Positions 18,243 through 47,510 of a stretch of DNA of 64,000 bases are shown here, piece after piece. Source of the DNA: Deltaproteobacteria bacterium (GTDB lineage Bacteria > Desulfobacterota > Desulfobacteria > Desulfobacterales > Desulfosarcinaceae). The position numbers and the translations under genes are program-made. The notes under the pieces are model-generated. The model was not told the DNA's origin and ran no database searches. It saw only the letters and a program-made list of their open reading frames with translations. How positions within the stretch are numbered: the stretch's first letter is position 1; each line of letters begins with the position of its first letter. Location: the NCBI GenBank assembly GCA_021824175.1, contig JAKALP010000007.1, positions 186,001-250,000 of the forward strand. Reading direction: 5' to 3'.

Positions 18243-19115
18243 TCAACTAATTTTACGGTACACCGTAGCCGCCACCTGCCGCAGCGGCAATTGAAAGCCA
18301 TTGAGGGTTTCGGAATGGCCCATGAAGAGATAGCCGCCGGATTTTAAACAGCGGCACAAGCGGCTGAGTACGGCCAGTTGGGTGGGCCGGTCAAAATAGA
18401 TGATCACATTGCGGCAGAAGATGATATCCATGGCGTTTTCCATGCCATAGTCATTGTCCATCAGGTTTAAACGGTCAAATTCCACCAGGCGGCGCAGTTC
18501 GGGAATAATGCGGATGCGCGGATGAAGGCGGTCCTTGCTGCGCAGCAAATACTTCTTCTTCAGGTTGGGCGGGACGGGTGCGACATCGCGTTCATCGTAG
18601 ATCGCGTTGATCGCGGTTTGCAGCACCCGCAGGCAAATATCAGTGGCCAAAATCTGAAATGAAAAGCCTTGCACCCGTTGGCTGAATTCGCTGAAGACCA
18701 TGGTCAGGGTGTAAGGCTCAGCTCCGGTGGAGCAGCCCGCGCTCCAGACCTTGAGGGCCCGGCGCAGGCCGGCGCCAGAGCGTTCGATCAGCTCCGGCAG
18801 TACATTTTGAACCAGCACCTCATAGTGGCGCGGCTCCCGGAAGAAATCGGTTTTGTTGGTGGTGACCGCATCCAGCAAATGGCTGAGCTCTTTTTCGCGC
18901 CCATCGTTGCTGAACACGTAGTCATAATATGCTTCGAAGGTGCGCAGCCCCAATTGCCGCAAGCGCTTTTGCAGCCGCGATTGCAGCATGGTGCGCTTGG
19001 CGGGCGGCATTTTGATGCCCAAGGTATCGGTCACAAAGCGACTGAAGCGATCAAAAAGCTTGGGGGACAGCATCGGACCGCTGGCGCTGAGTGCTTCATT
19101 CATATCGGATCTCAT
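18243..19115 (-). CDS. cheR: Chemotaxis receptor methyltransferase CheR
   Basis: About 290 residues. Methylates glutamates on chemoreceptors using S-adenosylmethionine. The helical N-terminal domain is followed by the SAM-binding VWSAGCSTGAEPYTL, the FQILATDIC segment, FCRNVIIYFD and GYLFMGHSE motifs of CheR. No TPR extension. The frame runs back to 19295 but would overlap cheY, so the start is taken at ATG 19115 (ATG 19103 is equally possible). It follows cheY by 32 bp on the same strand and shares its promoter. Substrates are presumably the three membrane receptors further upstream, whose C-termini carry a shared FER(F/Y) tail. Confidence 0.94.
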   Translation of the reverse strand: MRSDMNEALSASGPMLSPKLFDRFSRFVTDTLGIKMPPAKRTMLQSRLQKRLRQLGLRTFEAYYDYVFSNDGREKELSHLLDAVTTNKTDFFREPRHYEVLVQNVLPELIERSGAGLRRALKVWSAGCSTGAEPYTLTMVFSEFSQRVQGFSFQILATDICLRVLQTAINAIYDERDVAPVPPNLKKKYLLRSKDRLHPRIRIIPELRRLVEFDRLNLMDNDYGMENAMDIIFCRNVIIYFDRPTQLAVLSRLCRCLKSGGYLFMGHSETLNGFQLPLRQVAATVYRKIS

Positions 19116-19147
19116 TGATGGCGTGAAAGCCGCCCATTTCTCATTGA

Positions 19148-19513
19148 CTATCCCAACACCTTTTTCACTACCGCCAGCAACTGGTCGGGTTTGAACGGCT
19201 TGATGATCCAGCCCGTGGCGCCGGCGGCCTTGGCCGCTTCCTTCTTTTCCGGTTGGGATTCGGTGGTCAGAAACACGATGGGAAGAAATTTGCACTCCGG
19301 TTTGGCGCGCAGGACCTTGATCAGCTCCAGGCCGTTCATATTGGGCATATTGAGGTCGGTGATCACCATATTTATACCGCTGCCGTTGATCTTGGTCAGG
19401 GCATCTTTACCGTCGCAGCATTCGACCACATTGTAGCCGGCTCCCTTGAGGGTGAACGACACCATCTGCCGGACACTGGCGGAATCATCCACGGTGGCGA
19501 TTGTTTTACTCAT
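19148..19513 (-). CDS. cheY: CheY-type single-domain response regulator
   Basis: 121 residues, a single receiver domain. Acidic pair D9/D10 (ATVDDSAS), phospho-acceptor aspartate in VITDLNMPN (about D53), conserved threonine in VFLTTES, and lysine in IIKPFKP. No output domain, so it probably binds the flagellar switch or acts as a phosphate sink for CheA. Ribosome-binding site AAGGAGG lies upstream of the ATG at 19513. First gene of a cheY-cheR unit with a sigma-28-like promoter. Confidence 0.94.
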   Translation of the reverse strand: MSKTIATVDDSASVRQMVSFTLKGAGYNVVECCDGKDALTKINGSGINMVITDLNMPNMNGLELIKVLRAKPECKFLPIVFLTTESQPEKKEAAKAAGATGWIIKPFKPDQLLAVVKKVLG

Positions 19514-19757: not shown

Positions 19758-20825
19758 CTACACCAAGCACTCCCGCAACACCATCCCCGCAATCCCCTCC
19801 AGCGGCATGACCTTGTCCACGCCGCCCTTTTTGATGGCCTCCTTGGGCATACCGAAGACCACGCAGGTGGCCTCATCCTGGGCAATGGTGTATGCGCCGG
19901 CCTGTTTCATTTCCAGCATGCCCTGGGCGCCGTCGTCGCCCATGCCGGTCATGATCACGCCCACGGCATTGGCGCCGGCATAGCGCGCCGTGGATCGGAA
20001 GAGCACATCCACCGAGGGGCGGTGGCGGCTGACCAGCGGGCCGTCTTTTACTTCCACGTAGTAGCGCGCGCCGCTGCGCTTGAGCAGGATGTGGCGGTTG
20101 CCGGGGGCGATCAGAGCCCGGCCGCGAATCACGGTGTCGTCGTTTTCAGCCTCCTTGACCGTCACCTGACAGGTCGTATTGAGCCGCTCGGCAAAGGCCC
20201 GGGTGAAGTTCTCCGGCATGTGCTGCACGATTACGATGCCGGGGGAGTCGGCCGGCAGCATTTCCAGAAAGACGCGCAAGGCTTCGGTGCCGCCGGTGGA
20301 AGCACCCACAGCCACCACTTTTTCCGTCGTGCGCACCATGGCATGGCTGGTGGGCTTGGCGATGACGGCATCCGCCGACAGCTTGGGCTCGATGCGGCGC
20401 TGGGGCGCGATGCGTACCAGGCGCGCCTTGGCCGCCGCGCAGAGGGTGTCGCAAATACGCACCCTGGACTCTTCCAGAAAGGTGCGCGTGCCCATCTTGG
20501 GTTTGGCGATGATCTCCACGGCCCCCAGCTCCATGGCCTTAAATGCCGAGCGCGAGCCCTTATCGGTCAGGCTGGAGCAGATCACCACGGGAATGGGATG
20601 CTGGCTCATGATCTTTTCCAGAAAGGTCAGGCCGTCCATGCGCGGCATTTCCAGGTCCAGGGTGATGACATCGGGTACTTGCTGGCGGATCTTGTCGGCC
20701 GCGATAAAGGGATCCTGGGCCGTGGCCATCACTTCCAGACGCGGATCGGCGCTGACAATATCGGCCAGGGTGTTGCGCACCACGGCCGAATCATCAACGA
20801 TCAGTACCTGTATCTTTTGTTTCAT
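19758..20825 (-). CDS. cheB: Chemotaxis methylesterase/glutamine deamidase CheB
   Basis: 355 residues. An N-terminal receiver ([21 protein letters not shown]) controls a C-terminal methylesterase. Catalytic serine in [10 protein letters not shown], histidine in [11 protein letters not shown] and aspartate in [11 protein letters not shown] are all present. It removes methyl groups from receptors, opposing CheR. Its start overlaps the end of the upstream receiver gene by 32 bp, indicating translational coupling in the kinase-receiver-cheB unit. Confidence 0.96.
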
Positions 20826-23040: not shown

Positions 23041-23583
23041 CTATGTGAGCTCCTCCGAAATCACCACCCGCTGCAACCGTTTCATCAACACATCGCCCGT
23101 GCTGGTGTCGAAGACGATTTTGCGGCCAAAGCCGCCGCCCACATCCATCACCTTCAGCACCAGGCCGCAATTGCCCAGCGTCTCCATGGCGGCTTTGACA
23201 TTTTGCTGCCCCACGGAGTTGGCCGCATTCTCCGGCCGCAGGCTGCCGATCATGGCCGCCCCGCCGAACAGCTTGACCTCCAAGTCCTTGGGAAGCGCGC
23301 CCAGCTTGAGCATCTGCCGGCTCATGCCTTCAATGGCACAAGACGCAAAGCGATAACGGCCTTTGCACTCGGGCGGGCACGATTCCGAACAAAGTGGCGT
23401 CTTGGGGCACCTGGGTTGCAGGGCATGACAGATGGCGGCCGCGTGGGTAATGCGGTTGTACAGGGTCACCGATATGCAGGACCCCAACACCGTTGTCACC
23501 GTGATGGGCCGCGTACTGACGCACACCTCGCCGGGTTTCAGATAGATGCGCGGGCTTTCATCGCGATAGTCCCAGTTGTTCAT
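23041..23583 (-). CDS. cheD: Receptor glutamine deamidase CheD with Cys-rich insertion
   Basis: 180 residues. CheD deamidates receptor glutamines and can bind CheC-type phosphatases. The active-site cysteine lies in TTVLGSCISVTLYN (C36) and the histidine in ICHALQP (H53). Directly after the histidine is an insertion with cysteines at about 52, 59, 65, 69 and 73 (PRCPKTPLCSESCPPECKG), which I would not expect in a minimal CheD and which could bind zinc or an iron-sulfur centre. The conserved LFGGAAM segment follows. Preceded by a weak ribosome-binding site. No cheC was seen in the window. Confidence 0.9.
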   Translation of the reverse strand: MNNWDYRDESPRIYLKPGEVCVSTRPITVTTVLGSCISVTLYNRITHAAAICHALQPRCPKTPLCSESCPPECKGRYRFASCAIEGMSRQMLKLGALPKDLEVKLFGGAAMIGSLRPENAANSVGQQNVKAAMETLGNCGLVLKVMDVGGGFGRKIVFDTSTGDVLMKRLQRVVISEELT

Positions 23584-23773: not shown

Positions 23774-25984
23774 CTAATACCGCTCGAAACCGTCGTCCTC
23801 ATAATCGCCATTGGGCTTCAATACTAATGCGAACCCGCTTTGTTTTGCTTCCGGTGCCCCGGCTGAATCTTCAGAAAGTCCTGAAGCCCTGCGGCCGCTG
23901 CCATTGCCGTTGCTTTTGGAACGTTTTTTCTTTGCAGTACTTTCCTGGCGCGCTTTTGCGGCCATGGCGGAATGCGGAGCGCCATCCTCCCCTGCAAGAT
24001 GGAAAAAGCTGACCGCCGATTGAAGTTGCTCGGCTTGCTGGGAGAGCTCTTCGGCCGTGGCGGCCATCTCTTCCGAGGCGGAACTGTTCTGCTGAATCAC
24101 TTGATCCAGTTGCTGAATGGCTTTATTGATTTGATCCGCGCCCGTGTTCTGTTCATTGCTGGCGGCGCTGATCTCCTGCACCAGCTCAGCCGTGCGCTGC
24201 ACGTCGGGCACAATGCTGGCCAGCATTTGGCCGGCGGCTTCGGCCACTTCGACGCTGGAAGAAGATAATTTGCTGATCTCGCCGGCGGCCGACTGACTTC
24301 TTTCGGCCAGCTTGCGAACCTCGGATGCGACCACGGCAAAGCCCTTGCCGTGATCCCCGGCCCTGGCCGCCTCGATAGCGGCATTGAGCGCCAGCAGATC
24401 GGTTTGACGGGCGATCTCTTCGATCACCGAGATCTTTTGGGCGATATTCTTCATGGCACTGACGGTGTCCAGAACGGTGTTGCCGCCGGTCTTGGCATCG
24501 TCGGCCACTTTTAACGCGATCTTCTCGGTCTGGGAAGCATTGTCCGCGTTCTGGCGAATGTTGGCCGCCATCTGCTCCATGGAGGAAGAGGCCTCTTCCG
24601 CCGAGGCGGCCTGCTCGGTGGCGCCCTGACTCATCTGCTCGGAACTGGAGCTGAGGTGCTGGCTGCCGGCCGCCACCTGGTAGGCCGCATTTTTGACATC
24701 CACCACCACGGCATTGAGCCGATGCACCATGGATTCCAGCGCCTTGCCGAGCGTATCCTTGTCGGAAAGTATTTTGACCGATACGGAGAGATCTCCCTGG
24801 GCGATCTGCTCGGCAATGGTCACCGTCCCCTTCAAATTGGCCACCATGCGCCGCAATGCTTCCGCCAGAATACCCAGCTCATCCTTTTGGTGCACGTCGA
24901 TGGTGGCCGTCAAATCCCCCAAGGCCACCTGGGAAGCAAAGTCAACGCCTTTGATCAAGGGCCGCACGATTCCACGCGCGATCACCCACGCCAACCCCAC
25001 GCCGATCAAAATGGCCAACAGGCTGAAGAGTGTCACGGCCGTGCGGGTATTAATGGCGGCCTTGAGCATTTCCTTGTCGGTCATGATGTTGTTCTTGGCT
25101 TCGGTGCGGATTTCGTGCAACAGTTCCTGCACCCGGTGCAGGGCGGGAACGGTTTGCTCGGTGTAAATCTTATTGGCCTCCAGCATGCCGGCCAACTCAT
25201 TCTCTGCTTCCGCGCGCAATGCTTCCAGGGCGGCCAAGGTTTGCTCCAAAATGGGCAAGGTTTGAGAATGAAACAGTTGAACCGCATCCTTGGAGGAGCG
25301 GGTCAAGCCCTCCTGGATTGCAATGGCGCTGTGATGCAACTGCTCATGATGGCGCAGCATCTCCTGCCATTTGGCTTTAAAAACAGGGCTGCCATGGGCC
25401 AGGGCCGCCTGGGCATCCTCGGAGATGATCCATTTGCCCAGAGCGCATTTGGTGGGATCGGTCTGAACGTTCAAATTTCGCTCGCCCTTGAGCAACGTAT
25501 CCCTGATGGCCGCGGCCCAGTTGAGATGATCGATCTCCCGGGCCAGAATGATCTGGGGCAGATGGCCGTCAGCCTGTTTAAAAGTCCGGCCAATGGCGAT
25601 GGCCGACTCATGCAGATGACGATGGGGGGCTTCGATCTCCTTGAGCAGCGGCGCCAGGGAGGGCACCAGGGCCTCGGCCTGCCTGCGTTCATCGCCGTAG
25701 AGCCATTGGCCGAAACCGCACTTATGATCGTCCGTCTCCACATCCAGGGTGGTCACCTTGGCGTCGGTGAGCAACGCATTGACCTTGCCGGCCCAATTGA
25801 GATGGTCCACTTCTTTCTGGGCCAAAAGGCCGTTCAGTTCATTGCCGCGAATTACTTCGCCGGCATTGTGGACGATGCGGTCGATGCCAAAATAGGACCA
25901 CCCGGCCACCACGGCCAGCAAAATCAGCACGCTGCCGAATCCCACGGTGAATTTCTTGCTCAATTTAAGATCTTTCCACTCCAT
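23774..25984 (-). CDS. Chemoreceptor with two extracytoplasmic CZB-like zinc-binding domains
   Basis: About 736 residues. TM1 at ~11-33, a sensor region ~34-313, TM2 ~314-336, HAMP, then the methyl-accepting signalling hairpin with the conserved tip. The sensor has two tandem CZB-like modules: H61 (DHLNW), C89 (CGFGQW), H121/H125 (PHRHLH), and H153 (DHLNW), C180 (CALGKW), H213/H217. CZB domains bind zinc through 3 His and 1 Cys and sense zinc or thiol oxidants; they are usually cytoplasmic, whereas here both lie between the two membrane helices. The C-terminus is a basic linker ending DDGFERY. The start at ATG 25984 has GGAGG upstream; the longer frame (to 26041) has no such signal. Confidence 0.93.
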
Positions 25985-26090
25985 TGCATGCCTCCAAATA
26001 GTAGTTGAGTCATCGATGAGTTGTTTTAACCGTTCGTTCAATCAACCACTTGAGCAATCAACTCACCTGCAGCCCTACCCCATGGGTAGT

Positions 26091-28244
26091 CTAAGCCGCC
26101 AGTTGGTCCTGATTTACTTCCTTCAACAACTTCTGCACATCCAGAATCAGCGCCACCGTGCCGTCGCCCAAAATAGTGGCGCCTGAAATTTCTTCTACTT
26201 CTTTGTAAAGGGTATTCATGGTCTTGATGACGATCTGGTGTTCGCCGATGACACGATCCACCACGATGCCCACCCGATGGCCGTCCACCTCGTTGATCAC
26301 CACCTGCTCATAGGCCGGCGGCTCGCTAGTAATGCCGAAGCGCTGACGCAGGGGCACAAAGGGCACGATCTGACCGCGGATGTTGAGAATGTTGCGGCCG
26401 TGGGTTTTGGCCACATCGGCGCGACTGAGCTCCACGCACTCTTCGATGGCCGACAACGGCAGCACATATTTGCCGCTTTCAATCTCCACCAGCAGGCCGT
26501 CGATGATGGCCAGGGTCAGCGGCAGCTTGAGGGTGATCGTCGTGCCCACGCCTTTGCGGCTCTGCAACTCGATGGCGCCGCGCAAACTCTCCATGCTGCG
26601 CTTGACCACATCCATGCCCACGCCGCGGCCCGAGACATTGGTCACTGCCTGGGCCGTGGAAAAGCCCGGCAGGAAGATCATTTGCAGAATCTCTTTTTCA
26701 CTGCGCTCGGCATCGGGCGCCAGCAACCCCTTTTCTATGGCTTTGCGCCGGATCTGCTCCGGATCGATGCCGGCGCCGTCATCGCTGATGTGGATGAGCA
26801 CATTGGCGCCGGAGTGTTCGGCCTTCAAGGAGATGACGCCCTGCTCGGGCTTGCCCGCGGACTGGCGCTGGGCCGGCGACTCGATACCGTGATCGATGCT
26901 GTTGCGCAGAATGTGCACCAGCGGATCACTCAACTGCTCGATGACGGTCTTGTCCAGTTCCGTGTCGCCGCCTTCGGTTTTGAGCGAAATACTCTTACCC
27001 AACTCGTTGGAAAGATCGCGCACCAGCCGGCGCAGCTTGCTGAAGGTGACTTCAATGGGCAGCATGCGGATGCTCAGGGTGTTGTCCCGCAGCTCGGCGG
27101 TCAGGCGCTCGACCACTTCGCTGATGGCCAGCAGTTCGGGATCACGGGTCGTCGCTGCTTTTTGGCCGAGGCGGGCCTGGACCGTCACCAGTTCGCCGAC
27201 CAGATTGACTAGCGTGTCGAGCTTCTCAGCGGCCACGCGTACGCTGGTGGCTGCGGATTGCTGCTCGCGAGTTTGACGCGCTGTTTGCACAAAAGCTTGT
27301 TCGGCCAAGGCCGATTGAATCTTCTCCGGGCTGACCTGTTTGGATTTGACGAGAATTTCACCCAGGCGTTTCTGGCCGCGCAGCGCCTTTTCTACCTTGG
27401 AGAGATCCAGATCGCCGCGCTCCACCAGGATCTCGCCCAACCGCTTGTGCTTTTCGGCATCCGGAACTCCCTCTAGGGTTTCGATCAGCTCGATGGACAA
27501 CGCGCAGCTCTCTTCCACGAAGATGAAGACATCCCGGATGGCTTCTTGAGCGGCCGTGGTGTTCAGCAGGATATCCCAGTAAAGGTAGCATTTCTCCGGA
27601 TTGAACTTTTCGGCGAGCGGCAGTTTGTCGGTGTATGCGATGGTGCGGCACTGGCCCAGGCCGGCCAGCTCGTTGAGCAGGCCCAATGGATTGGTTCCGT
27701 TCTGGAAAATGTTTTCCTTGGGGCGGAAGCGGATGCGGAAGATCTTTTCCACGGGCGGAGTATTCTCTTGGGGAGCTTTCGGCGCGACTTCCAGTGCCTG
27801 AACCGGCTCGGGGGTCTGCGCTTGGCTGCTTACCAACACCTGGGTGACCCCCGCGGATTGTTCCAGCAAGGCCGCTTGAAAGCCCTGGAGAATCTCGCTG
27901 GCCTGGGCTTGATCCACGGGCGCGTGGCCGTCGCTGCAATCGAGCATCTGTTTGATGTGGTCCCGGGCGCGCAACGCCAGGTTGACCAGGTGGGTGGTCA
28001 CCGGTATGCGCCCTTCGCGCACCAGGTCAAACACCGATTCCACGCTGTGGGTGAATTCGGCGATATCGTCGAAGCCGAACATGGCGCCGGAACCCTTGAT
28101 GGTGTGCATGGCGCGGAATACACGATCCACCAGATCGTAGTTGTCCGGGGCAGCTTCCAGCTCCAGCAACGATGTCTCCAGTTCGGCCAGCAGCTCATAT
28201 GCTTCGACTTTGTAAGCCTCTTTTTGGGTATCCATGGATTGCAT
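26091..28244 (-). CDS. cheA: Chemotaxis histidine kinase CheA
   Basis: 717 residues. HPt domain with phospho-histidine in AMHTIKGSG (about H47), a P2-like region, a repeat region with two RLGEILV modules, dimerisation and ATPase domains (HILRNSIDHGIESP, GRGVGMDVVK), and a C-terminal CheW-like domain. It autophosphorylates in response to receptors and passes phosphate to CheY and CheB. An in-frame ATG three codons downstream has better spacing from AAAGGG and may be the true start. It lies 106 bp upstream of the CZB receptor gene on the same strand. The only cheA in the window, so it presumably serves all the receptors here. Confidence 0.96.
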   Translation of the reverse strand: MQSMDTQKEAYKVEAYELLAELETSLLELEAAPDNYDLVDRVFRAMHTIKGSGAMFGFDDIAEFTHSVESVFDLVREGRIPVTTHLVNLALRARDHIKQMLDCSDGHAPVDQAQASEILQGFQAALLEQSAGVTQVLVSSQAQTPEPVQALEVAPKAPQENTPPVEKIFRIRFRPKENIFQNGTNPLGLLNELAGLGQCRTIAYTDKLPLAEKFNPEKCYLYWDILLNTTAAQEAIRDVFIFVEESCALSIELIETLEGVPDAEKHKRLGEILVERGDLDLSKVEKALRGQKRLGEILVKSKQVSPEKIQSALAEQAFVQTARQTREQQSAATSVRVAAEKLDTLVNLVGELVTVQARLGQKAATTRDPELLAISEVVERLTAELRDNTLSIRMLPIEVTFSKLRRLVRDLSNELGKSISLKTEGGDTELDKTVIEQLSDPLVHILRNSIDHGIESPAQRQSAGKPEQGVISLKAEHSGANVLIHISDDGAGIDPEQIRRKAIEKGLLAPDAERSEKEILQMIFLPGFSTAQAVTNVSGRGVGMDVVKRSMESLRGAIELQSRKGVGTTITLKLPLTLAIIDGLLVEIESGKYVLPLSAIEECVELSRADVAKTHGRNILNIRGQIVPFVPLRQRFGITSEPPAYEQVVINEVDGHRVGIVVDRVIGEHQIVIKTMNTLYKEVEEISGATILGDGTVALILDVQKLLKEVNQDQLAA

Positions 28245-28873: not shown

Positions 28874-31450
28874 CTAAAATCTCTCAAATTCACTGTCTCC
28901 GCCATCTTCGAGTCGGCCGGGTTCGCCCATGTGTAGAAGCACTCCTTTGAGCGAGGGTTCTCTCTCCGGGGCGCCATCGGCATTCATTTTTCGGTTGCGC
29001 TTGGTCTTTGTCTTTTCGCGGCCGGCGTTCACTGAACCGGCCTGCTCTTTGCCCAGGGAAGAAAGTGCTTCCATCTTGAAAAAGGAGATGGCGTTCTGGA
29101 GTTGTTCAGCCTGTCCAGAGAGTTCTTCGGCCGTGGAGGCCATCTCTTCGGAAGCCGAGGCATTTTGCTGGATCACTTGATCCAGTTGCTGAATAGCGCG
29201 ATTGATCTGGTCGGCGCCGGAATTCTGCTCGTTGCTGGCCACGCTGATCTCCTGTACCAGTTCCGAGGTCTTCTGGATGTCCGGCATAATACTCTTAAGC
29301 ATTTCCCCGGCTTTTTCCGCCACCTCTACGCTGCTGCCGGACAACCGGCCGATTTCACCGGCCGCCATCTGACTGCGCTCTGCCAGCTTGCGTACTTCCG
29401 AGGCCACCACGGCAAAGCCCTTGCCGTGCTCGCCGGCCCGGGCCGCCTCGATGGCCGCATTGAGCGCCAACAAGTCGGTCTGGCGGGCAATCTCTTCGAT
29501 GATGGAGATCTTCTGGGCGATCTGCTTCATGGCCACCACGGTTTCGGCCACGGCCTTACCGCCGGTTTCGGCATCGGTGGCGGCTTTCAAGGCGATCTTT
29601 TCGGTCTGGGAGGCATTGTCGGCATTCTGCTTTATGTTGGACGCCATCTGCTCCATGGATGAGGAGGCCTCTTCGGCCGCTGAGGCCTGTTCGGTGGCGC
29701 CCTGGCTCATCTCCTCGGAACTGGAACTCAATTGCTGGCTGCCCGCCGCCACTTGATCGGCCGCGGTCTTCACATCCGCCACTACGGCGTTGAGCTGATG
29801 CACCATGGTTTGCAGGGCCTGGCCCAGGGTATCCTTCTCCGACAGCACTTCGACCTTGACCCGCAGGTCGCCCTGGGAGATCTTCTCAGCCACGGCGGTT
29901 GTGGCGCGCAAGTTGGCGACCATCTTAGCCAGGGCTTGAGCCAAGGTGTCCTTGTCGGAGAGTTGTTTGACAGTCACGCCCAAATCGCCAACAGAGATCT
30001 GCTCGGCGATTTTCACCGTGGCCTTCAAGTTAGTCACCATGGCGGTCAGGGCTTTGCCCAAGGTGTCTTTCTCCGAAAGTACTTTGACTGATACCCCCAG
30101 GTCGCCCAGGGAAATCTGCTCGGCAATGCTGACCGTCTCTTTCAAATTGGCGGCCATGCGGCGCATGGATTCGGCCAGCACCCCGATTTCATCCTTGCGC
30201 GTTTCGTCCATGCGGGCGCTCAGATCGCCGATGGCGATGGCCTCGGCCATGGCCACTCCTTTGGCCAGGGGCCTGACGATCCCCCGCGTAATGACCGTGC
30301 CCAGGGCGATGCCCACGCAAAGGGAAATCAAGGTGACCAGGAGCATAAATACTACGGCCCGGCTTTTGGCGTTTCGGCCATCCGACTTGGCCGAAGACAT
30401 GTTATCGCCGGCCAGGGTCTCTACTTCGGCGAGCAGGTCATTGGCCTGTTGTCCGTACTCATCCAGACGGGCCATGGCCGTTTCGGCTTCCTGTGATTTG
30501 GCGACCATATCGCGGTAGGCGGCCATCATCGCGGCGGCACGCTTTTGAAAATCCTCGTGGTTCTGATCCAGCTCTTCAACGGCTCGGCGAATGTTGGGAT
30601 TGTTGGTGGCGGCCACCAATACGCCATCCACCCGGCCGCCCTTGAGAATCGCCTCCGCTCTGCGGTCGAAAAAGCCCAGCCAAGTCTTATACTCCTGCTC
30701 CAGCCGGTCCAGTTGAGACAACTCCTTGGTTTGGGTAAACTCTTCCAGAGTCAACCGGGCCTGGGCCATGGCGATCTTGAGCTCATTGGCCATGTCAGCC
30801 AGCGGAACTTCTTCGGTTAGAATAGCACGCGCCTCGCCGCCCACGTGGCCCTGGTCGGCCCGTTTGGTGATCTGGGCGCTGATCATCTCTTCTACCTTGG
30901 TGGCATCCTGGTACACTTCATCATAGATGCCCTCCACCTGCTTCATGGCCTGATCAGCCACGGCCTTGGTCTTGATCAAAGTCCGGCCTTTTTCCATCAG
31001 ATTCTGGGCCGCGGTCTGAAACTTTTCATTGTGCAGGGCGTCGGCCTGGCGCACTTTTTCGGCCAGCTTAGGGTCATCGGTTTTAATCACCTTGAGCTTG
31101 CCGCCCTCCAACTCCGCGCCATTAAGGATGGCCTCGGTGAAACGGTCGAACTCTTTGACCGCTTCATGGTAGGTCTTTTCGATTTCGGCCAGACCTGCTT
31201 CGTTATCCGTGGCCATGACCGCCGTGGCGCTCTTGAATTCTTCCATGGCATTGCGCGTGGCCAACAATGACAGCCGCATTTCCATGGACATGTCCGCTAC
31301 TGGCGCTTCCCGGTCGCCGACCGCAAACAGCGCCCGGCTCATGGTTTGAATACCGTCAAACCCCACATAGCCGGTAATCAACAGCAGTAAAATCATACAG
31401 CCAAACCCAATGGCCAACTTTTTGCCGATCTTCAAATCACGCCAGTTCAT
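28874..31450 (-). CDS. Chemoreceptor with poly-HAMP array
   Basis: 858 residues. TM1 at ~12-32, a long periplasmic helical sensor (~35-360), TM2 near 365-385, then a first HAMP and about three further HAMP-like repeats marked by the recurring IAEQIS.GDL...V..LS(D/E)KDTL phrase. The signalling hairpin has the conserved tip, and the C-terminus is GGDSEFERF after a basic linker. Poly-HAMP chains relay and convert signals between membrane and kinase-control module. Start ATG 31450 has AAAGGAG. It is in one unit with the soluble receptor-like gene upstream (63 bp gap) and the STAS gene downstream. Confidence 0.93.
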
Positions 31451-31513: not shown

Positions 31514-33541
31514 TTAAAACAGCTCCACATTGTCATCAAAGCCGGCGCTGGACTGCACCGCGGCCGCAGGCTCTTTTTGCTTCTTGGCGATCTTTTGCTC
31601 TTTGCCACCGTTGCTGATTTTTTCATGGGCGTCCAGTTCACGCTGCATGGTGTAACGGGCCTTGATATTCTTTTCTTCTTCCATCCAATCCTCGGGCGCC
31701 GCGCCGGAAAAGGGCTGGAGCAGCTTTTCAAATTGCTTCAAGTCGGCATGATGCTTCCTGAACACGGCCAGCAGCCGGTCGAAGAAATCGGTGCGCCGCC
31801 GGGCCTGGATGATCTTTTCCTCGATATGGCGGCCGTTCTCCAGGGCGCTGTACGACTGTTCTTTGAAGGCTACGCAGGCGGAAGTAAATTGATCGATGCC
31901 CTCGCGCAGCAGCCGGCCGGCGGCATCCGCCTCCTGGGCGTCGTTGCGGGTGGTTTGATCCAGGGATTGGGAAGCCGAGGCAATGCCTTCCATGATGTCG
32001 GTCACGGACTGGATGGTGGTGTTGGATTGCTCGGCCAGTTCCTTCATCTCATTGACAATGGCTTCAATGGCTTTGCCGGTTTCACCCAGGCGGGTGGATT
32101 TGATAACGGCGTTGAGGGCCTTGAGGCGGATGTCAAAGTTGATATCGCGCACTTTATCGATATGGGCCCCCATGCGGGCGATGGTTTGCGCGGTCTGCTC
32201 GCGGGCCGCGGTGAGTCGGCGCAGGTCGTCCACCCCGGCGTCAAAGAGTTCAAGCAGTTGCTCCAGGGCGCGGCGCAATACGGCCACGGGATGGCGCGAA
32301 TTGGCCGTATCGAACTGGCAGACGCCGCCGCTGTTGGAGAAATCGAAACCTTCGGGCTGGGCCACGGCCTTGACCGCCGCCAGCAGATGTTCCAGGGCCG
32401 AACCGGTCTGACGGCGCACTTCGGCTACGTCATCTTCAATGGTCTTCAACTGCACGATCTGCAGGCGATTGATGCCATATACTTTCCCAAAGATGACTCT
32501 CATGGCGGCCTGCGGCAGTTCGATGCCCTTGGAGGTCTGGACAATATCCACGGCTTCGTCCATGGAGAGATCGATGTGGTTGACCCGCTGGGACATGTTG
32601 TCATGGATCTGGATACTCACCACCAGGCGGCCCACCTGTTCACTGATTTGCGTGGCTTTGGCGCCAATACCGTCCAGCACATGCATGGTGAGCTGCATCA
32701 GGTTCTCCACTTCCACCAGGGCCTTGCTGACGGTCTGGTCCGCCGAGCCAATTAACTCTTCCAGGTGCCGCATGCGCTGGCTGATGTCGGCCTGAATGCT
32801 ATTGAGATTCTGCTGGGCCATGTTGGTGTCGTCGCTCACCGCGTTGGCCACCTCCCAAACGGTTTGGGCCAGATGGGTGATCTCCTCGGCCAGGGCCTGA
32901 AAGGTGGCTTTGGCCTCATCAGTACGCGCGCTCTCGATGCTGATGTTGAGGCCTACCATCTTGAGGTTCTTGGCCACTTGTTTAAAGCTGTTGTTCTGTT
33001 TGCCCAGGGCGGTCATGTCGCCTTGGATGGCCTTGAGCCCCTCCAGATCCGCGGCCAGTTTGGACCGTCGCTGGTTCAGCTCCTGGATGGCTTCGGCGGC
33101 GTGGGTCTGGATGGTCCGCAAGGCCCCCTGGACAGTTTGCTCCTGCTCGGTGGAAAGAACCGCCACCACCTGTTGGGTCAAGGCATCGGAGTCGGCCTGA
33201 ATGGTCTGCAACTGGCTGCCCAGGTTCAGGAAGTCAGGCTCGGTGGCGGTACAGATGCGCTTGAGCCCTTCGGCGCAGCCCTTCAATTTTTGAATCAGGG
33301 CGCTGCTGTCCAGCAAAGGGGCGGATTCTTCAAACGCCGCCGCGGCATTGCTCTTGGTCTGACGTGAATGAACATCGGGAGATAGCAGGCCCGTTTCCAT
33401 CCCATAGAGACCCGCCTCTGCCGGAGCGGTGCGCCAACCCAGCACCCGGCCGATCCAGCCCAAACTGCTCTTCAAAAAGCGCGGCATCCGCGGGTCCCAG
33501 CCTGTGTGCGTCGAAACAAGGGGTTCCATGTTCACCTTCAT
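31514..33541 (-). CDS. Soluble receptor-like coiled-coil protein with two MCP-tip-like segments
   Basis: 675 residues, alpha-helical throughout, with no membrane helix. Two segments resemble the signalling tip of chemoreceptors: residues ~185-235 (LKMVGLNISIESARTDEAKA...) and ~460-515 (FDIRLKALNAVIKSTRLGETGKA...; compare [14 protein letters not shown] in the neighbouring receptors). Each is followed by the V..E...LA pattern. The C-terminus ends DDNVELF, which echoes the FERF tails. It may be a cytosolic receptor or an array-organising protein. Its gene has its own sigma-28-like promoter and leads the receptor-STAS unit. ATG 33529 is an alternative start with AAGGTG upstream. Confidence 0.82.
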   Translation of the reverse strand: MKVNMEPLVSTHTGWDPRMPRFLKSSLGWIGRVLGWRTAPAEAGLYGMETGLLSPDVHSRQTKSNAAAAFEESAPLLDSSALIQKLKGCAEGLKRICTATEPDFLNLGSQLQTIQADSDALTQQVVAVLSTEQEQTVQGALRTIQTHAAEAIQELNQRRSKLAADLEGLKAIQGDMTALGKQNNSFKQVAKNLKMVGLNISIESARTDEAKATFQALAEEITHLAQTVWEVANAVSDDTNMAQQNLNSIQADISQRMRHLEELIGSADQTVSKALVEVENLMQLTMHVLDGIGAKATQISEQVGRLVVSIQIHDNMSQRVNHIDLSMDEAVDIVQTSKGIELPQAAMRVIFGKVYGINRLQIVQLKTIEDDVAEVRRQTGSALEHLLAAVKAVAQPEGFDFSNSGGVCQFDTANSRHPVAVLRRALEQLLELFDAGVDDLRRLTAAREQTAQTIARMGAHIDKVRDINFDIRLKALNAVIKSTRLGETGKAIEAIVNEMKELAEQSNTTIQSVTDIMEGIASASQSLDQTTRNDAQEADAAGRLLREGIDQFTSACVAFKEQSYSALENGRHIEEKIIQARRRTDFFDRLLAVFRKHHADLKQFEKLLQPFSGAAPEDWMEEEKNIKARYTMQRELDAHEKISNGGKEQKIAKKQKEPAAAVQSSAGFDDNVELF

Positions 33542-33710: not shown

Positions 33711-33737
33711 TTATCGGCGGGTTAAGCGCGGGCTTTA
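33711..33737 (-). promoter_or_regulatory. Sigma-28 (FliA)-like promoter for the soluble receptor unit
   Basis: On the minus strand: TAAAGCCC, 11 bp, GCCGATAA. TAAA-N15-GCCGATAA matches the core FliA consensus exactly. Predicted leader is about 160 nt. Confidence 0.75.
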
Positions 33738-34878: not shown

Positions 34879-35406
34879 TCAACCACCCCTGGCTTCCCGC
34901 AACGCCGCCGCGGTCACTGCATGCGCCTGGATCTCCTGCTGCAGGCGGGCGTTGACCTCGGCCAGTTCGGCCGCCTTCTGACGGATGGCGTTATGGGCCA
35001 GCTTGAGGGCCTGGGTATTTTCCGAGAGTTGGCGCTTCAACTGCCGCTCCTGCAACACCCGATGGACCACCTCGGGCAGAACGGCCCACAGTTCGGGGCA
35101 CTTGGTCAGATACTCCCTGGCGCCCTCTTTGAGAATCTGGCCCGCCACACGTTCGCTGCCCTTGCCAGTGACCATCACCACGCTCACGCCGGGGTCCACC
35201 TGGCGCAGGGCCCGGAACACTTCCAGGCCCGTGCCGTCGGGCAGATCAAAATCCAGCAGCACTACTTCATGGCGGGTCCCTTGAAAGGCCTCGACCGCCT
35301 CCTTGGCGCTGTAAGCAAAGGTTACGGTGTGGCCGAATTCCCACAAGCTGTAAGCATGGGCCGCGGCCGCGGATTTGCTATCTTCGACGATGAGAATGTT
35401 GGCCAT
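34879..35406 (-). CDS. Receiver-domain protein with coiled-coil tail
   Basis: 175 residues: receiver (ILIVEDSKS, VVLLDFDLPDGTG, VVMVTGKGS, YLTKCPE; the usual KP is KC) and then a long alpha-helical coiled coil (~120-175) without a known output domain. Hybrid-type proteins with such tails often dimerise or couple to kinases. The ATG at 35406 has no clear ribosome-binding site because a GATTCGTT repeat lies directly upstream. Confidence 0.86.
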   Translation of the reverse strand: MANILIVEDSKSAAAAHAYSLWEFGHTVTFAYSAKEAVEAFQGTRHEVVLLDFDLPDGTGLEVFRALRQVDPGVSVVMVTGKGSERVAGQILKEGAREYLTKCPELWAVLPEVVHRVLQERQLKRQLSENTQALKLAHNAIRQKAAELAEVNARLQQEIQAHAVTAAALREARGG

Positions 35407-35585: not shown

Positions 35586-36095
35586 CTACGCTGCTGCCTT
35601 ATCCGCCCCGCCGTCGGCCTGCTGCACCATGGCGAGTTCTTCCACGGAGAAGATGCGGTCCACATTGAGAATGATGATGAACTGATCGTTATGCTTGCCG
35701 ATACCCTTGATGAACTCGGTATTCCACTTGGCGCCCACCTTGGGAGCCGGTTCGATGCCCGAGGGCTCGATGTCCATGACATTGTGCACTGCGTCGGCCA
35801 GAGTGCCGATGATGGTCAATTCGCCGTCCAGGGCGATCTCCATCACCACGATGCGGGTGTCCACGGTCCGCTGGGTTTTCTCCATGTCGAACTTCAGGCG
35901 CAGATCCACTACCGGCACCACGCTGCCGCGCACGTTGATCACGCCGCGCATGAACTCGGGCGCCCTGGGCACCTTGGTGATGTTGGTGACATCCAGAATT
36001 TCACGCACCTGGGAGACATCGATGGCAAACATCTCTTCGCCCAACTTGAAGGTCAAATATTGATGCAACATGGCTTTGGTCGCGTTATCGGTCAT
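35586..36095 (-). CDS. cheW: Chemotaxis coupling protein CheW
   Basis: 169 residues. CheW fold: YLTFKLGEEMFAIDVSQVREIL, FMRGVINVRGSVVPVVDLRLKF, and WNTEFIKGIGK. It joins receptors to CheA in the array. Ribosome-binding site AAAGGATG is upstream. It lies 93 bp downstream of the carbonic-anhydrase receptor on the same strand; a CTCAGTCCC repeat fills the gap. Confidence 0.95.
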   Translation of the reverse strand: MTDNATKAMLHQYLTFKLGEEMFAIDVSQVREILDVTNITKVPRAPEFMRGVINVRGSVVPVVDLRLKFDMEKTQRTVDTRIVVMEIALDGELTIIGTLADAVHNVMDIEPSGIEPAPKVGAKWNTEFIKGIGKHNDQFIIILNVDRIFSVEELAMVQQADGGADKAAA

Positions 36096-36188: not shown

Positions 36189-38942
36189 TTAAAATCTCTC
36201 AAACTCGCCATCCTTGTCATCCCCGCCGCCGGCATGGGTCTGCTTTTTGCCCAGGCCAAGCTCAATGGATACGCCGCTGATCGGACGCGACTTGTCATGG
36301 TGGACCGCGGTGGCGATTCTCTCCTTGTGGACGACCGCTTTCTTGACGGTTTTATGCTCCTGGGGTTCACTTCTCCTCTGGGTCTTACGGGCCTTATTCA
36401 GATCGATCAGCTTGCCGATGGTTTCCTTGAGCGCCTCGGCCTGGGCCGACAACTCCTCGGCCGTGGAGGCCATCTCCTCCGAACCGCCGGCGTTTTGCTG
36501 CACCACGGATTCCAACTGCTGCAAGGCTTTGTTGATTTGATCGGCGCCGGCGTTCTGCTCGTTGCTGGCCACGCTGATCTCCTGCACCAGTTCGGCGGTC
36601 TTCTTGATATCCGGCACGATTTGGGTCAGCATCTCGCCGGCCTTCATGGCGATATCCACGCTGGTGCTCGAAAGCTTGCTGATCTCGCCGGCCGCCAGCT
36701 GGCTGCGCTCGGCCAGCTTACGCACCTCCGAGGCCACCACCGCGAAGCCTTTGCCGTGCTCGCCGGCCCGGGCCGCCTCGATGGCCGCGTTCAAGGCCAG
36801 CAGATCGGTCTGGCGGGCAATCTCTTCGATGATGGAGATCTTCTGGGCGATCTCCTTCATGGCGGTGACGGTCTTCTCCACGGCCTGGCCGCCTTGCTCC
36901 GCATCGGTGGAAGATTTCAGGGCGATCTTCTCGGTCTGGGAAGCATTGTCCGCGTTCTGGCGGATATTGGCCGCCATCTCCTCCATGGAAGAAGATGCCT
37001 CTTCCACCGAGCCGGCCTGTTCGGTGGCCCCCTGGGACAACTCTTCGGAGGTGGCTGAAAGCTGCTGGCTGGCGCTGGCCACATACTCGGCCGCGGTATT
37101 GACTTCGTTGAGCGCGGCCACGATACTGCGGGTCACCATAAAACCCATGGCCATGCCCAGAAGCACGGCGATTACGGCCACGATGATCATCAACTGCACA
37201 CCGGAGCTTTCTTCATGCTCCGCGGCCATCGAAGACTTCTCGGTGAAAACTTCGATCTCTTGGGTGGCCTCGCCGATGGCGGCGACCACCTGATCCCCTT
37301 CGACCTCAACCCTTTGGGCCATGGCCTGGGCCTCTTGCAGCTTGCCGGCCAACAGCAGATTGAAATACTCATTGACCTTCTGTTCGTACTCATCATGCTC
37401 TTTGTTTATGGTGCTGATTTTTCTGAGCAGCGTTTCAAATTCAATGCGATCGGCGGCATTATCGGCCTCGCGCGCGATCTTGCCCGCCGTCTCCTCGGCC
37501 TCTTTGATATTGGTGCTGTTTTGATTGCCGAGGTTATCGAATTCCTCCAGGGAAGAGGCCACTTCCCGCATCTCGTTGTTCAAAGCGTGGCTCAGGCCCC
37601 GCTCCTTGAGCACATTCATTTCCAGTTGAGCGCGGATAATGGTGTTCATCTTCTCGGCCATGGGGATATCGTGGTTCGCCACGGAACTCAGCTCATTGCC
37701 GATGCTGTTCATCTTCATGACCGCGGCCAGCGCCACCACGCCGATGAAGACCAGCAGGATGGCCACAATGGCGGTGATCCGGGTCCCCACCTTCATCTGA
37801 TTCAAAAATTCAGCGTTGAGGCCGCCGTTAAAGGCCAGCAATCCCAGAAAGCCGAGCACGCAAAGAGCGCCGGCAATGGCCACCCAGATCACCAAGCTGG
37901 ACTTGCCGGCCTGGCTTTCAGCGGCCTGTTTATTAGTCTTGGATTGCTTTTCGCCTTCGCGGTTAGGGGACGAATTATTCGTGGTTGATGCGGCCCCGCC
38001 CTCATATCGTCCGGCGGCCGAAGCCATTGAAACTCCGAAGGCGGAACCAGCGGCATGGGACCCAAAGGCCGTGCCTTGCCCGCCGGCAACCGGCGGCTCC
38101 TGAGAAAAACTGGAGGCCGTGGCGCTTCCAGAGGCCCCGATGGAAACAAACGCCACGCGGCCCGTGGCCACCTCGGCGACGTTGCGGCCGTTGAGGGGCT
38201 GGGTCGGCCGCGCGTTGTGTCCCAATAAACCGACAAACTTTTGCACCTGGGCGCCGGAGACCTCGATGGGCGCCTTCATCACATACCACATCACCCCTTC
38301 GGTGCAGGGCGGCGTAGTCAGCGAACCGGTGAAGTGGTAATAGGAACCGTTGGCCGGCAGCAATTCGGCCGGATCAATGGAGAGATTGCGGACTGTCTTC
38401 TCCTCGTTGACGCGGGAGGGCAAATTGGCCCAAAGCGACGCGATAAAGGGATTTTCGCGCCCCTTTTCCATAAAAACACCCACCACGGCCAGTTGCCCCT
38501 GATCGTTTTTGTGGACCAGATGCACTTCCATGGCCGCGGGCGAGCCCTGATGGGTGTTCTCGCTGGGACTGTGGAAGTGGAATTGGAGCAGTTTGTAAAC
38601 CTTACCGCCGATCCGGATATAGGAATCGGTGTCCAGGTTCACCTGAATGGTGTGGCCGTTGTTGACCATGCGCAGCGGACTGGCCTTGTAGTCAAACTCG
38701 ATTGGGCCCAGATCCGCGGAGACCGCATGATCGATATCGATGGGAGATTGGCCGGCACCCAAACCGCAAACCGCATATTCGGCGGACAGATGCCCCCAGT
38801 TCTCAGGCCCTTGTTGGCCCTCATAGGCCCAATGAACACCACCGTCATGGCCGCTCTTGGCGCTGAGGCCGGCTGCGGCCCCCAGCACCAATAACGTTCC
38901 CATCATTAAGGCAAACAAAAAACGTAAGAAACGCATCGGCAT
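36189..38942 (-). CDS. Alpha-carbonic anhydrase fused to a transmembrane chemoreceptor
   Basis: 917 residues. Residues 1-28 are a signal peptide. Residues ~35-262 are a complete alpha-carbonic anhydrase: zinc histidines H122 and H124 ([12 protein letters not shown]) and H141 (EVHLVHK), proton-shuttle position H97 (NNGHTIQV), the Thr-199 equivalent in SLTTPP (T209), and a likely disulfide pair C59/C213. A low-complexity linker (~265-345) leads to a membrane helix (~350-372), a second helix (~385-410), a helical sensor (~412-575), a third helix (~582-605) and a chemoreceptor signalling hairpin with the conserved tip (~700-745). It ends DKDGEFERF. The enzyme would hydrate CO2 to bicarbonate in the periplasm. 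How it signals is unknown: it may sense CO2, bicarbonate or local pH, or feed substrate to the helical sensor. AAAGGG lies upstream of the ATG, and it has its own sigma-28-like promoter. Confidence 0.95.
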
Positions 38943-45295: not shown

Positions 45296-46906
45296 TTACC
45301 AATCCATGGTTTCACTATGACAGCCCCCGACCAGACATCCCCGGCGGGTGGCGTGATTGTATCCCAGAGAAGAATTGAGCGTGTTCCAGGGCGCGCCTTC
45401 AAAAGTAGTAGTCGCCAGATTGCTGAAGTGATTGGGGGCCAATAGGGCCGCGCTGTGGCAAGCGGTGCAATCATAATTGCGCGTGACCACATGCAGGCGA
45501 TGCCGGCCGGAGGTGGCGCTGTTGTATTGGCCGGCGCTGGTGGTGTGGCACGATAGGCAGGCCGTGTTGACATTCAATGTTCCGCTGTTCCAGTTGGGCG
45601 TGGCCTGGCCGCCGTGGCAGCGGGTGTTAGCGCAGCTTTTGGTGGCGCTGTTATAGATCGCGCCGCCGCTCTGGGCGTTATAAGCCGAAGCAATGGTGAC
45701 CGCGGCCGGGTTGCCGCCGTTATAGTGCACGGGGGTGTTGGTGCCGGCATTCAAGTGGCACACATCGCAATTGTCGGTCACGCCGGCCAGGGCATCGTGC
45801 ACCCCATGGCCACCGTTGCGGTTGGGAGCCTGGTTGCCGGCTGGTGTCTGACCGTCCGGTGGGCTGTTGTGGCAAGAAGCGCAGTTGGTCAGCACCAGGG
45901 GTGAGCCGGCGCTATGGCACTGGGTGCAGGCCGGGCCAACACCGCCGCCCGCGCTGCCATTGAGGCTGGTTCCATGGCACAGGGCGCAGGCCGTGGCCAT
46001 CTGGCCGGCGCTTTTATGGCTGCCGGCGGCCGGGCCGGTCCACAAAGGCGTGGGGTGGGCCGTGTGGGCTGCATGACAACTCTCGCACCCGGCAGCATAA
46101 TCACCGATGGGTACATTGAAACGCGGATTGCCGCCCGCGCCGGCATTGGAAGGGATGGCATGGCACGGTTGGCAGACGCGCAAATCGGCCTTGGCATCCA
46201 AACCATGCAACAGCGGATCGATGTAAGGCAACGGATGAGCGCTACTGGGACCGGATGGGTGGCAGGTTGTAAGACTGCCATCGGCATTGGTGAAGGTGGC
46301 GGAGAAGCAACTGGGCGCATCCTGCCGCGGCTGGGTACCGCCGGCGCTTACCTGGTGACACAGGGCGCAGCTATTGTCGATGGTGCTGCGGCTCACCACG
46401 CGGTGGGACGAGATATAGTCCGGCGTGATGTCATTGGTGCCCTGCCAGCGCGTGGGGTGGGCCCCGGCGCTGGGATGGCAGCCGGCCGCCGAGCAATTGG
46501 CCGGAGGGGCGTTATAGCCATTGGGGTCGGCCAGCAGGCCGCCGTCAAACACATTGGGCGCCGTGCCATGGCAGGTCAGGCACTGGCGCTGATCCCGGCG
46601 CGCGGCGGGGCCGTGATCCGCGGGATCGGCATAAGGCAAAGGGTGGATGGTGATGGGTTCCCCGTCCGGATGACAGGTCAAACAACTGACCGCGTGGGTG
46701 CCGCCGCTCAAATCGCTTTTGTGGCACATTTTACAACTGTTCAAGTCGGCCGCGGCGTCCGCGCCATGGGAGAGAAGATAGTTTTGAACATGGGCTTGAG
46801 TGTCCGCGGGCGCCGGAGGATTGGCTGCGGAACAGGCCATCAGCAGTAGATGGAGAAGTAGAACTGGAAGAAATGGAAGATAATGTCGATTCATGCCCGC
46901 ACGCAT
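45296..46906 (-). CDS. Outer-membrane-type multiheme cytochrome c lipoprotein
   Basis: About 536 residues. The signal sequence ends with lipobox LLLMACS, so it is predicted to be a lipoprotein. I count 12 CxxCH motifs, three CX4CH motifs (CSAAGCH, CANTRCH, CLVGGCH) and one spaced CX14CH (CFSATF...LTTCH) aligned with a CLTCH in an internal repeat, giving up to 16 haems. The pattern is like Geobacter-type CxxxxCH/CXXCH cytochromes used in extracellular electron transfer. The start is uncertain: the ATG at 46906 is used, but 46894 and 46927 (overlapping the upstream stop) are possible. Last of three genes after a porin and a second cytochrome. Confidence 0.9.
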   Translation of the reverse strand: MRAGMNRHYLPFLPVLLLHLLLMACSAANPPAPADTQAHVQNYLLSHGADAAADLNSCKMCHKSDLSGGTHAVSCLTCHPDGEPITIHPLPYADPADHGPAARRDQRQCLTCHGTAPNVFDGGLLADPNGYNAPPANCSAAGCHPSAGAHPTRWQGTNDITPDYISSHRVVSRSTIDNSCALCHQVSAGGTQPRQDAPSCFSATFTNADGSLTTCHPSGPSSAHPLPYIDPLLHGLDAKADLRVCQPCHAIPSNAGAGGNPRFNVPIGDYAAGCESCHAAHTAHPTPLWTGPAAGSHKSAGQMATACALCHGTSLNGSAGGGVGPACTQCHSAGSPLVLTNCASCHNSPPDGQTPAGNQAPNRNGGHGVHDALAGVTDNCDVCHLNAGTNTPVHYNGGNPAAVTIASAYNAQSGGAIYNSATKSCANTRCHGGQATPNWNSGTLNVNTACLSCHTTSAGQYNSATSGRHRLHVVTRNYDCTACHSAALLAPNHFSNLATTTFEGAPWNTLNSSLGYNHATRRGCLVGGCHSETMDW

Positions 46907-46919
46907 ATCCTTCTGATGA

Positions 46920-47510
46920 TCAGCCATGGCACGGCGCGCAGCTCTTGGCAGATTTGGGTCGTCCGTGGCAGCGGAAGCAGCCCGTGGGATCAATGTGGCC
47001 ATCGATGCGATGGCGCGTCAGATAATCGCCCTGGTGGGGCATCAGGCGGCGCGTATCGCCGTGGGCCATGAGCGATGGTTTCATGGCCGCGCCCTGGGCG
47101 TGGCAGTCACTGCAAAAACTCGGCTGGTGGCACATGGCGCATACCTGCTCGCTGCCCACGGCGGTCAGCCGGTGATTTTGAGCAAAGAGCGGGGAGTGTT
47201 CGAAGCGCCGGAACGGGAAGCCTTTGGCTTCGCTCTCGTGGCAGTCCGAACAGGCGCGCAGATCGCCCTCTTCCCTGGGATGCGCCAGGGGCAGGCCGTC
47301 GGCCCGGGACCATTGGGCTGGCAGCAGAAGAGAGCCGAGCAGTATTATGGAGAAGGCTGCGATGCGTACTCTTTTCAATACGCATATTGCCGTTTGGGTA
47401 TTAGCTTCCTGGGTCTGTTTCAACGCAGAGACGCCGAGTTCGCGGAGGAACGCAGAGGATGCTCCGCCAAGGGATTTATTCCGCCGGTATCGGCCGGCCC
47501 ATTCGCTCAT
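46920..47510 (-). CDS. Periplasmic pentaheme-type cytochrome c
   Basis: Up to 196 residues with five CxxCH motifs (CSDCH, CAMCH, CSDCH, CFRCH, CAPCH). A hydrophobic segment (IAAFSIILLGSLLLPAQW) acts as signal peptide or anchor. The upstream codons to 47510 include translation of an intergenic repeat (near 47422), so the true start may be the TTG near 47378; the ATG at 47510 sits in a TAATG overlap with the porin stop, which would couple them. Its stop overlaps the next cytochrome's possible ATG. Likely shuttles electrons to the porin-associated lipoprotein. Confidence 0.85.
   Translation of the reverse strand: MSEWAGRYRRNKSLGGASSAFLRELGVSALKQTQEANTQTAICVLKRVRIAAFSIILLGSLLLPAQWSRADGLPLAHPREEGDLRACSDCHESEAKGFPFRRFEHSPLFAQNHRLTAVGSEQVCAMCHQPSFCSDCHAQGAAMKPSLMAHGDTRRLMPHQGDYLTRHRIDGHIDPTGCFRCHGRPKSAKSCAPCHG
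47422..47458. repeat. GCAGAGACGCCGAGTTCGCG repeat inside the cytochrome 5' region
   Basis: A phrase of the AACGCAGAGACGCCGAG...CGCAGAGG kind, of a type often seen between genes and here falling in the 5' part of the pentaheme frame. It argues that this part of the frame is not coding. Confidence 0.55.

Follow-up and report, generated by a model that had tools for sequence, protein, structure and literature searches.

A putative alpha-carbonic anhydrase built into a chemoreceptor of a Desulfobacterota chemotaxis cluster, a probable sensor of CO2, bicarbonate or pH

What is a carbonic anhydrase (CA) doing in the same reading frame as a membrane chemoreceptor, and could such a protein sense inorganic carbon? 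The question is raised by a gene in a 64 000-nucleotide stretch of contig JAKALP010000007.1 from a bacterium of the Desulfosarcinaceae (the whole stretch analysed is termed the window). An earlier note on this DNA had described the gene as one open frame; translation reproduced its coordinates and strand exactly and gave 917 codons from an ATG start with no internal stop. The gene and its parts are listed below; G199 is a second genome in which such a fusion was found.

36189..38942 (-), CA-chemoreceptor fusion gene, 917 aa (one ATG frame; PF00194 plus PF00015; second case in G199)
38859..38942 (-), signal peptide, residues 1-28 (hydropathy about 2-28)
38169..38837 (-), alpha-CA domain, residues 36-258, with H122/H124/H141, T209, E128, H97 and C59/C213 (PF00194, 53-row alignment, Foldseek 6im0)
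37908..38168 (-), Ala/Ser/Gly-rich flexible linker, residues 259-345 (composition; pLDDT <50 at 241-349; 19/74 identical to G199 over 259-349)
37830..37907 (-), TM1, residues about 346-371 (hydropathy)
37713..37781 (-), TM2, residues about 388-410 (hydropathy)
37203..37712 (-), predicted helical periplasmic sensor (4HB-like), residues 411-580, with H516 (sub-threshold 4HB_MCP_1; four-member alignment)
37128..37202 (-), TM3, residues about 581-605 (hydropathy)
36408..37112 (-), MCP signalling domain without HAMP, residues 611-845 (PF00015; no HAMP at E 0.001)
36192..36206 (-), C-terminal EFERF, resembling a CheR/CheB docking pentapeptide (sequence; motif description in PMC7390727)

From the N-terminus to the C-terminus the protein thus runs through signal peptide, alpha-CA, linker, TM1, TM2, helical sensor, TM3, signalling domain without HAMP and EFERF. 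Three membrane helices follow the signal peptide, in agreement with the earlier reading, and their hydropathy windows span residues 345-377, 382-415 and 577-611. A full-length structure model based on a six-row alignment (mean pLDDT 58, pTM 0.31) was consulted on three points alone, the fold of the CA, the linker and the helices; it predicted a beta fold for the CA, followed by a linker with pLDDT below 50 at residues 241-349 and then by long helices. Upstream of the gene the sigma28-like matches were weak (10/12), and a sigma70 promoter scan returned matches no more numerous than in shuffled sequence.

The CA domain matched PF00194 over residues 44-256 (E 3e-45, 155.3 bits against a cut-off of 27), covering positions 1-251 of the 254 in the profile. 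Its active-site residues were compared by column in an alignment of 53 CA rows, the labels of zinc ligands, gatekeepers (Thr199/Glu106) and shuttle (His64) following human CAII numbering. Both fusions retain the zinc ligands H122, H124 and H141, the gatekeepers T209 and E128 together with E139 and T210, the shuttle H97 and the disulfide pair C59/C213; every residue that had led the earlier note to call the domain a full-length alpha-CA (zinc histidines, shuttle, Thr199 equivalent) is present. The one departure seen from the textbook pattern is at the His107 position, which is Asn in 21 of the 53 rows, both fusions included. A Foldseek search matched the modelled domain to solved bacterial alpha-CAs (6im0, E 2.1e-21, 45% identity), and the best rows among bacterial chains had 43-47% identity to it. 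The active site is apparently intact by these comparisons and the domain is treated here as a putative enzyme; it is the sole PF00194 match in the window genome.

The linker is predicted to be disordered over about 90 residues. The sensor that follows the TM1-TM2 hairpin scored below the 4HB_MCP_1 cut-off (residues 383-485, 22.6 bits against 27), the G199 sensor is also sub-threshold for the 4HB_MCP_1/TarH type (19.8 bits), and the sensor of G028, a relative without a CA, scores above the TarH cut-off (31.1 bits against 25.2). A sensor model built from a single sequence gave no match to solved folds at E 0.001. The sensor subgroup has four members, namely the window and G199 fusions and the CA-less receptors of G024 and G028, with pairwise identities of 27-38%; H516 is common to all four in their alignment. 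The CA and the helical sensor should both be periplasmic, the CA because a signal peptide precedes it and its disulfide pair is kept, and the sensor because the TM1-loop-TM2 hairpin would bring the chain back to the periplasm; this predicted topology agrees with the earlier note. The TM1-TM2 loop of G028 is strongly basic, as expected for a cytoplasmic loop; basic residues directly ahead of TM1 in the window protein are in mild conflict with the proposed topology.

The membrane chemoreceptor with an intact signalling tip that had been read in the same frame was recovered as a PF00015 match (residues 673-813, E 2.5e-34). MCPs usually, though not by definition, contain a HAMP domain. A Pfam scan at E 0.001 found HAMP in neither fusion; it was present in 8/8 other membrane MCPs scanned. 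The fusions end in EFERF (window) and EFEKY (G199), and the published docking pentapeptide, which some MCPs carry, mostly has Trp at position 2 and Phe at position 5, according to a passage of PMC7390727. The window signalling domain is identical to that of the G199 fusion at 153 of 235 positions (65.1%). In a further comparison it is 76-81% identical to eight MCPs of its own genus; that these are nearer than the G199 fusion (64% in that comparison) suggests that the domain was regrafted or gene-converted. The same comparison gave no such own-genus closeness for the G199 signalling domain.

How rare the architecture is was assessed by a PF00194 profile search of genomes of the phylum, taken as 824 genomes (G000 to G823) from overlapping samples. 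Alpha-CA matches were found in 67, each counted once and with fragments (G424, G448, G533) and a partial match (G012) included, and the CA was fused in two of the 67, which bears out the earlier remark that such a build is unusual. The fused frames measured 922 and 898 codons from stop to stop, and the other CA frames, among the matches listed, at most 339. One profile scan outside the phylum yielded three loci (Rhodoferax, Chitinilyticum and another Betaproteobacterium), each with a frame ending with the CA and none fused. When the CA domain was searched against plasmids with tblastn, 195 records were matched, every one at less than 60% identity; among the best 15 of the 195, four have 'carbonic anhydrase' as the annotation of the matched stretch, which in the others is unannotated. 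Six pieces carrying a free CA, all from the same order, showed no match to CheA, CheW, CheB, CheD or CheR of the window cluster, and on one of them (G012) an MCP lies about 6 kb from the CA. As a separate observation, a free exported alpha-CA of the same order (G354, L077:11071-11910) contains a run of 21 aspartates inside the domain.

The second fusion (882 aa, L072:10770-13418) is from a genome of the same order but a different family, and it has all the parts of the window protein, arranged alike. Its gene has cheA on one side and cheW on the other, and an MCP gene, cheD, cheR and cheB come next. The CA-chemoreceptor fusion is real and more than chance, because the architecture recurs in this independent genome with similar genes around it. 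Between the two fusions 130 of 222 CA residues are identical (58.6%), as are 25/61 over TM1-TM2, 19/74 in the linker and 48/171 (28%) in the sensor, the last in a gap-free alignment; the che proteins of the two clusters are 52% (CheR), 55% (CheA), 62% (CheW) and 70% (CheB) identical. By these figures the enzyme part has changed to about the same extent as the che proteins, and sensor and linker have changed more.

All five chemotaxis genes that the earlier note had named around the fusion (cheA, cheW, cheR, cheB and cheD) lie in the window; counted from the fusion, the order is cheW, response regulator, two MCP genes, cheA, MCP and cheD.

35586..36095 (-), cheW, next gene downstream of the fusion (PF01584)
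34879..35406 (-), response regulator, 175 aa (PF00072)
31514..33541 (-), MCP-like 675-aa protein without membrane helix, marker of the che cluster in the genus
28874..31450 (-), MCP, 858 aa, with HAMP (Pfam)
26091..28244 (-), cheA, 717 aa
23774..26041 (-), MCP, 755 aa, with two CZB stretches and HAMP (Pfam)
23041..23583 (-), cheD (PF03975)
19758..20825 (-), cheB (PF01339)
18243..19295 (-), cheR

The window genome (6.07 Mb) has a dsrA match above the NCBIfam cut-off (615.2 bits against 392.85) and two flagellin matches, which make it probable that the host is motile and reduces sulfite or sulfate. Some further features of the window were recorded. Upstream of the 675-aa MCP-like gene, at 33737 (-), there is a perfect match to the sigma28 consensus TAAA-N15-GCCGATAA. 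CZB domains are usually cytoplasmic; the best CZB stretch of the 755-aa MCP (23774-26041 (-)) lies between two predicted membrane helices and is hence predicted to be periplasmic. A 1639-aa protein (12940-17859 (+)) combines protein kinase, AAA ATPase, GAF and GGDEF domains, and a 568-aa protein (45296-47002 (-)) that matches cytochrome c3/c7 and contains numerous CxxCH motifs is likely to be a multihaem cytochrome.

The origin of the fusion was approached through trees and relatives. In a CA tree of 53 rows (the loci retrieved, a subset of the 67 CA-bearing genomes) the two fused CAs are sisters with support 94/68 (moderate, not starred) and in 93% of 200 bootstrap trees. An earlier tree that set the fusions apart was discarded, its L014 row having comprised the last 93 residues only; the two became sisters once the whole domain was used. 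In that first tree, with the incomplete L014 row, the G354 CA lay near the fused CAs. A sensor-helix tree did not separate the four members of the subgroup, and in their alignment the G199 sensor is 38% identical to that of CA-less G024 versus 31% to the window sensor. G024 and G028 are both from the family of the window genome. The G024 receptor has two membrane helices and HAMP and no CA; that of G028 (L081:7072-8994 (-)) has a signal peptide, three membrane helices, a TarH-type sensor and HAMP, i.e. the layout of the fusion minus the enzyme. The 675-aa marker protein was found at 48% identity or more in nine of ten congeners, so the che cluster is conserved in the genus; none of the ten, two of them less than 75% complete, gave an alpha-CA match. 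Nine congener pieces were examined and three contain cheW plus its upstream gene, in each case an MCP with another sensor: CZB in G004, dCache in G010 and 4HB plus a sub-threshold CZB in G001. Because these MCPs bear different sensors, the fusion is read as occupying a slot in which sensors get exchanged. The fusion may have had a single origin with transfer, or may have been inherited and mostly lost.

Since the design recurs in a bacterium from a second family, the CA-receptor probably does sense CO2, bicarbonate or pH and is not the product of a sequencing accident. As to its working, we lean, at just short of an even chance, towards a tethered-enzyme receptor, in which the CA turns over CO2/HCO3-/H+ and the adjoining helical sensor reads pH or bicarbonate. 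The exported alpha-CA would hang in the periplasm on a flexible tether (sequence and low-confidence model) beside a Tar-like helical sensor adjoining the membrane, and would quickly interconvert CO2 and HCO3-/H+ at the receptor. The sensor, with H516 as a possible proton site, would respond to the resulting pH or bicarbonate. TM3 would hand its state straight on to the signalling domain, with no HAMP in between, and so to CheW/CheA, and the cell would be guided by inorganic carbon or by the CO2 that it gives off itself.

A stiff, mechanical coupling of the CA is unlikely because a disordered, poorly conserved linker and a membrane hairpin separate it from the signalling helices, and this is one reason for favouring an enzyme whose products the sensor reads. 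Others are that zinc ligands, gatekeepers and the shuttle H97, which serves turnover and not binding, are kept in both fusions, that the CA has diverged between the fusions about as far as the che proteins have and less than sensor and linker, that H516 is common to the four sensors, and that flagellin genes and a full che cluster are present in the genome. A pH-reading sensor is favoured because the G028 relative scores above the TarH cut-off and because the periplasmic domains of Tar and Tsr mediate the responses of these E. coli receptors to external pH (PMC4063634; Tar-mediated pH sensing also in PMC9600550, both in the passages available). Counted against the enzyme are the greater nearness of the G199 sensor to CA-less G024, the sub-threshold Pfam score of the window sensor, its lack of a fold match and the basic residues directly ahead of TM1; because the sensor also occurs without a CA in G024 and G028, it need not read CA products. 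A chemotactic decision takes less time than uncatalysed hydration of CO2, which needs tens of seconds, and a CA would thus make CO2 readable in time. A catalyst leaves the equilibrium unchanged and its products are lost by diffusion within microseconds (an estimate), so the enzyme would require CO2 out of equilibrium, e.g. respiratory CO2. It is conceivable, although we place it somewhat below even, that this is a receptor class making its own signal, in which a tethered CA converts CO2, possibly respiratory, to bicarbonate and a proton and so provides true CO2 taxis in sulfite-reductase bacteria.

Three other explanations were weighed against the tethered enzyme. In the chief one the CA might act as a ligand-binding domain whose zinc site binds bicarbonate, CO2 or a small anion (for a sulfidogen perhaps HS-), catalysis being incidental and the tethered domain docking on the helical sensor in a ligand-dependent manner like a covalently attached periplasmic binding protein. 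Binding proteins that dock on Tar-type sensors are known, the flexible linker of the model would permit docking, and the CA-like outer domain of RPTPgamma is a putative HCO3- sensor in a passage of PMC7541084. That domain, however, is described there as being without the catalytic histidines; the fusions keep them and also a proton shuttle that pure binding would not need, and sensor identity between the fusions is just 28%, so that we consider binding rather unlikely. Distinctly unlikely, in our estimate, is that the receptor senses something unrelated and serves only as an anchor, keeping the CA on the periplasmic side of the membrane or at the polar array for the benefit of carbon or pH metabolism. 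The sole PF00194 match in the genome leaves no free copy of the class for that job, and the sensor presumably works without a CA in G024 and G028; yet the absence of an alpha-CA match from all ten congeners makes the enzyme dispensable in the genus, two lineages hold the CA within a che cluster in the receptor slot adjoining cheW, and 0/6 free-CA pieces of the same order match CheA, CheW, CheB, CheD or CheR, one having an MCP about 6 kb away.

An artefact, either a misassembly or a missed stop fusing two genes, might be suspected from the occurrence of the fusion in just two of the 67 CA-bearing genomes among 824 and of an alpha-CA in 0/10 congeners. It is very unlikely, close to negligible, because G199, of another family, carries the same domain order in a che cluster, with cheW adjoining, a sensor that aligns gap-free over 171 residues and the active site kept. 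Third-position G+C is high along the entire frame (64-85% by segment), and the frameshift in the linker (residues 262-350) that the earlier note had raised as a possible refutation is countered by the G199 linker, which is likewise in frame.

Chemoreceptors are normally described as sensing through ligand binding, direct or via a binding protein. Another principle, chemical conversion at the sensing point, would come from a receptor whose outermost part is an apparently intact enzyme, and the fusion is a specific candidate for bacterial inorganic-carbon sensing. It is directly testable through one conserved histidine set, common CA inhibitors and routine receptor hybrids. Among the publications listed as matches, none reported a CA-MCP fusion in its title or abstract opening; PMC7691447 was considered as a precedent for a CA-chemoreceptor and set aside, the CA in its available passage being a beta-CA gene. 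The parts are known, and their combination as a built-in, apparently intact enzyme on a chemoreceptor is apparently undescribed in the titles, abstract openings and passages covered.

The free bacterial alpha-CAs (6im0 from Persephonella, 4c3t, 1kop from Neisseria) resemble the fused CA in their complete domain, active-site residues and export, but are separate proteins, whereas the fused CA forms the outer part of a receptor. With chemoreceptors of the 4HB/TarH type (Tar, Tsr) the fusion shares a membrane-adjoining helical sensor, the MCP signalling domain and a pentapeptide-like tail; it differs in its additional N-terminal enzyme, linker and membrane helix, in lacking HAMP and in a sensor below the Pfam cut-off. 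The CA-less receptors of G028 and G024 belong to the same sensor subgroup and differ by having HAMP and no CA. RPTPgamma, an animal receptor phosphatase, is likewise a transmembrane receptor with an outer domain of CA fold, described in a passage of PMC7541084 as a putative HCO3- sensor, but its CA-like domain is there without catalytic histidines and its output is a phosphatase, whereas the fusion has the histidines and an MCP output; the two joinings of a CA to a receptor may be independent.
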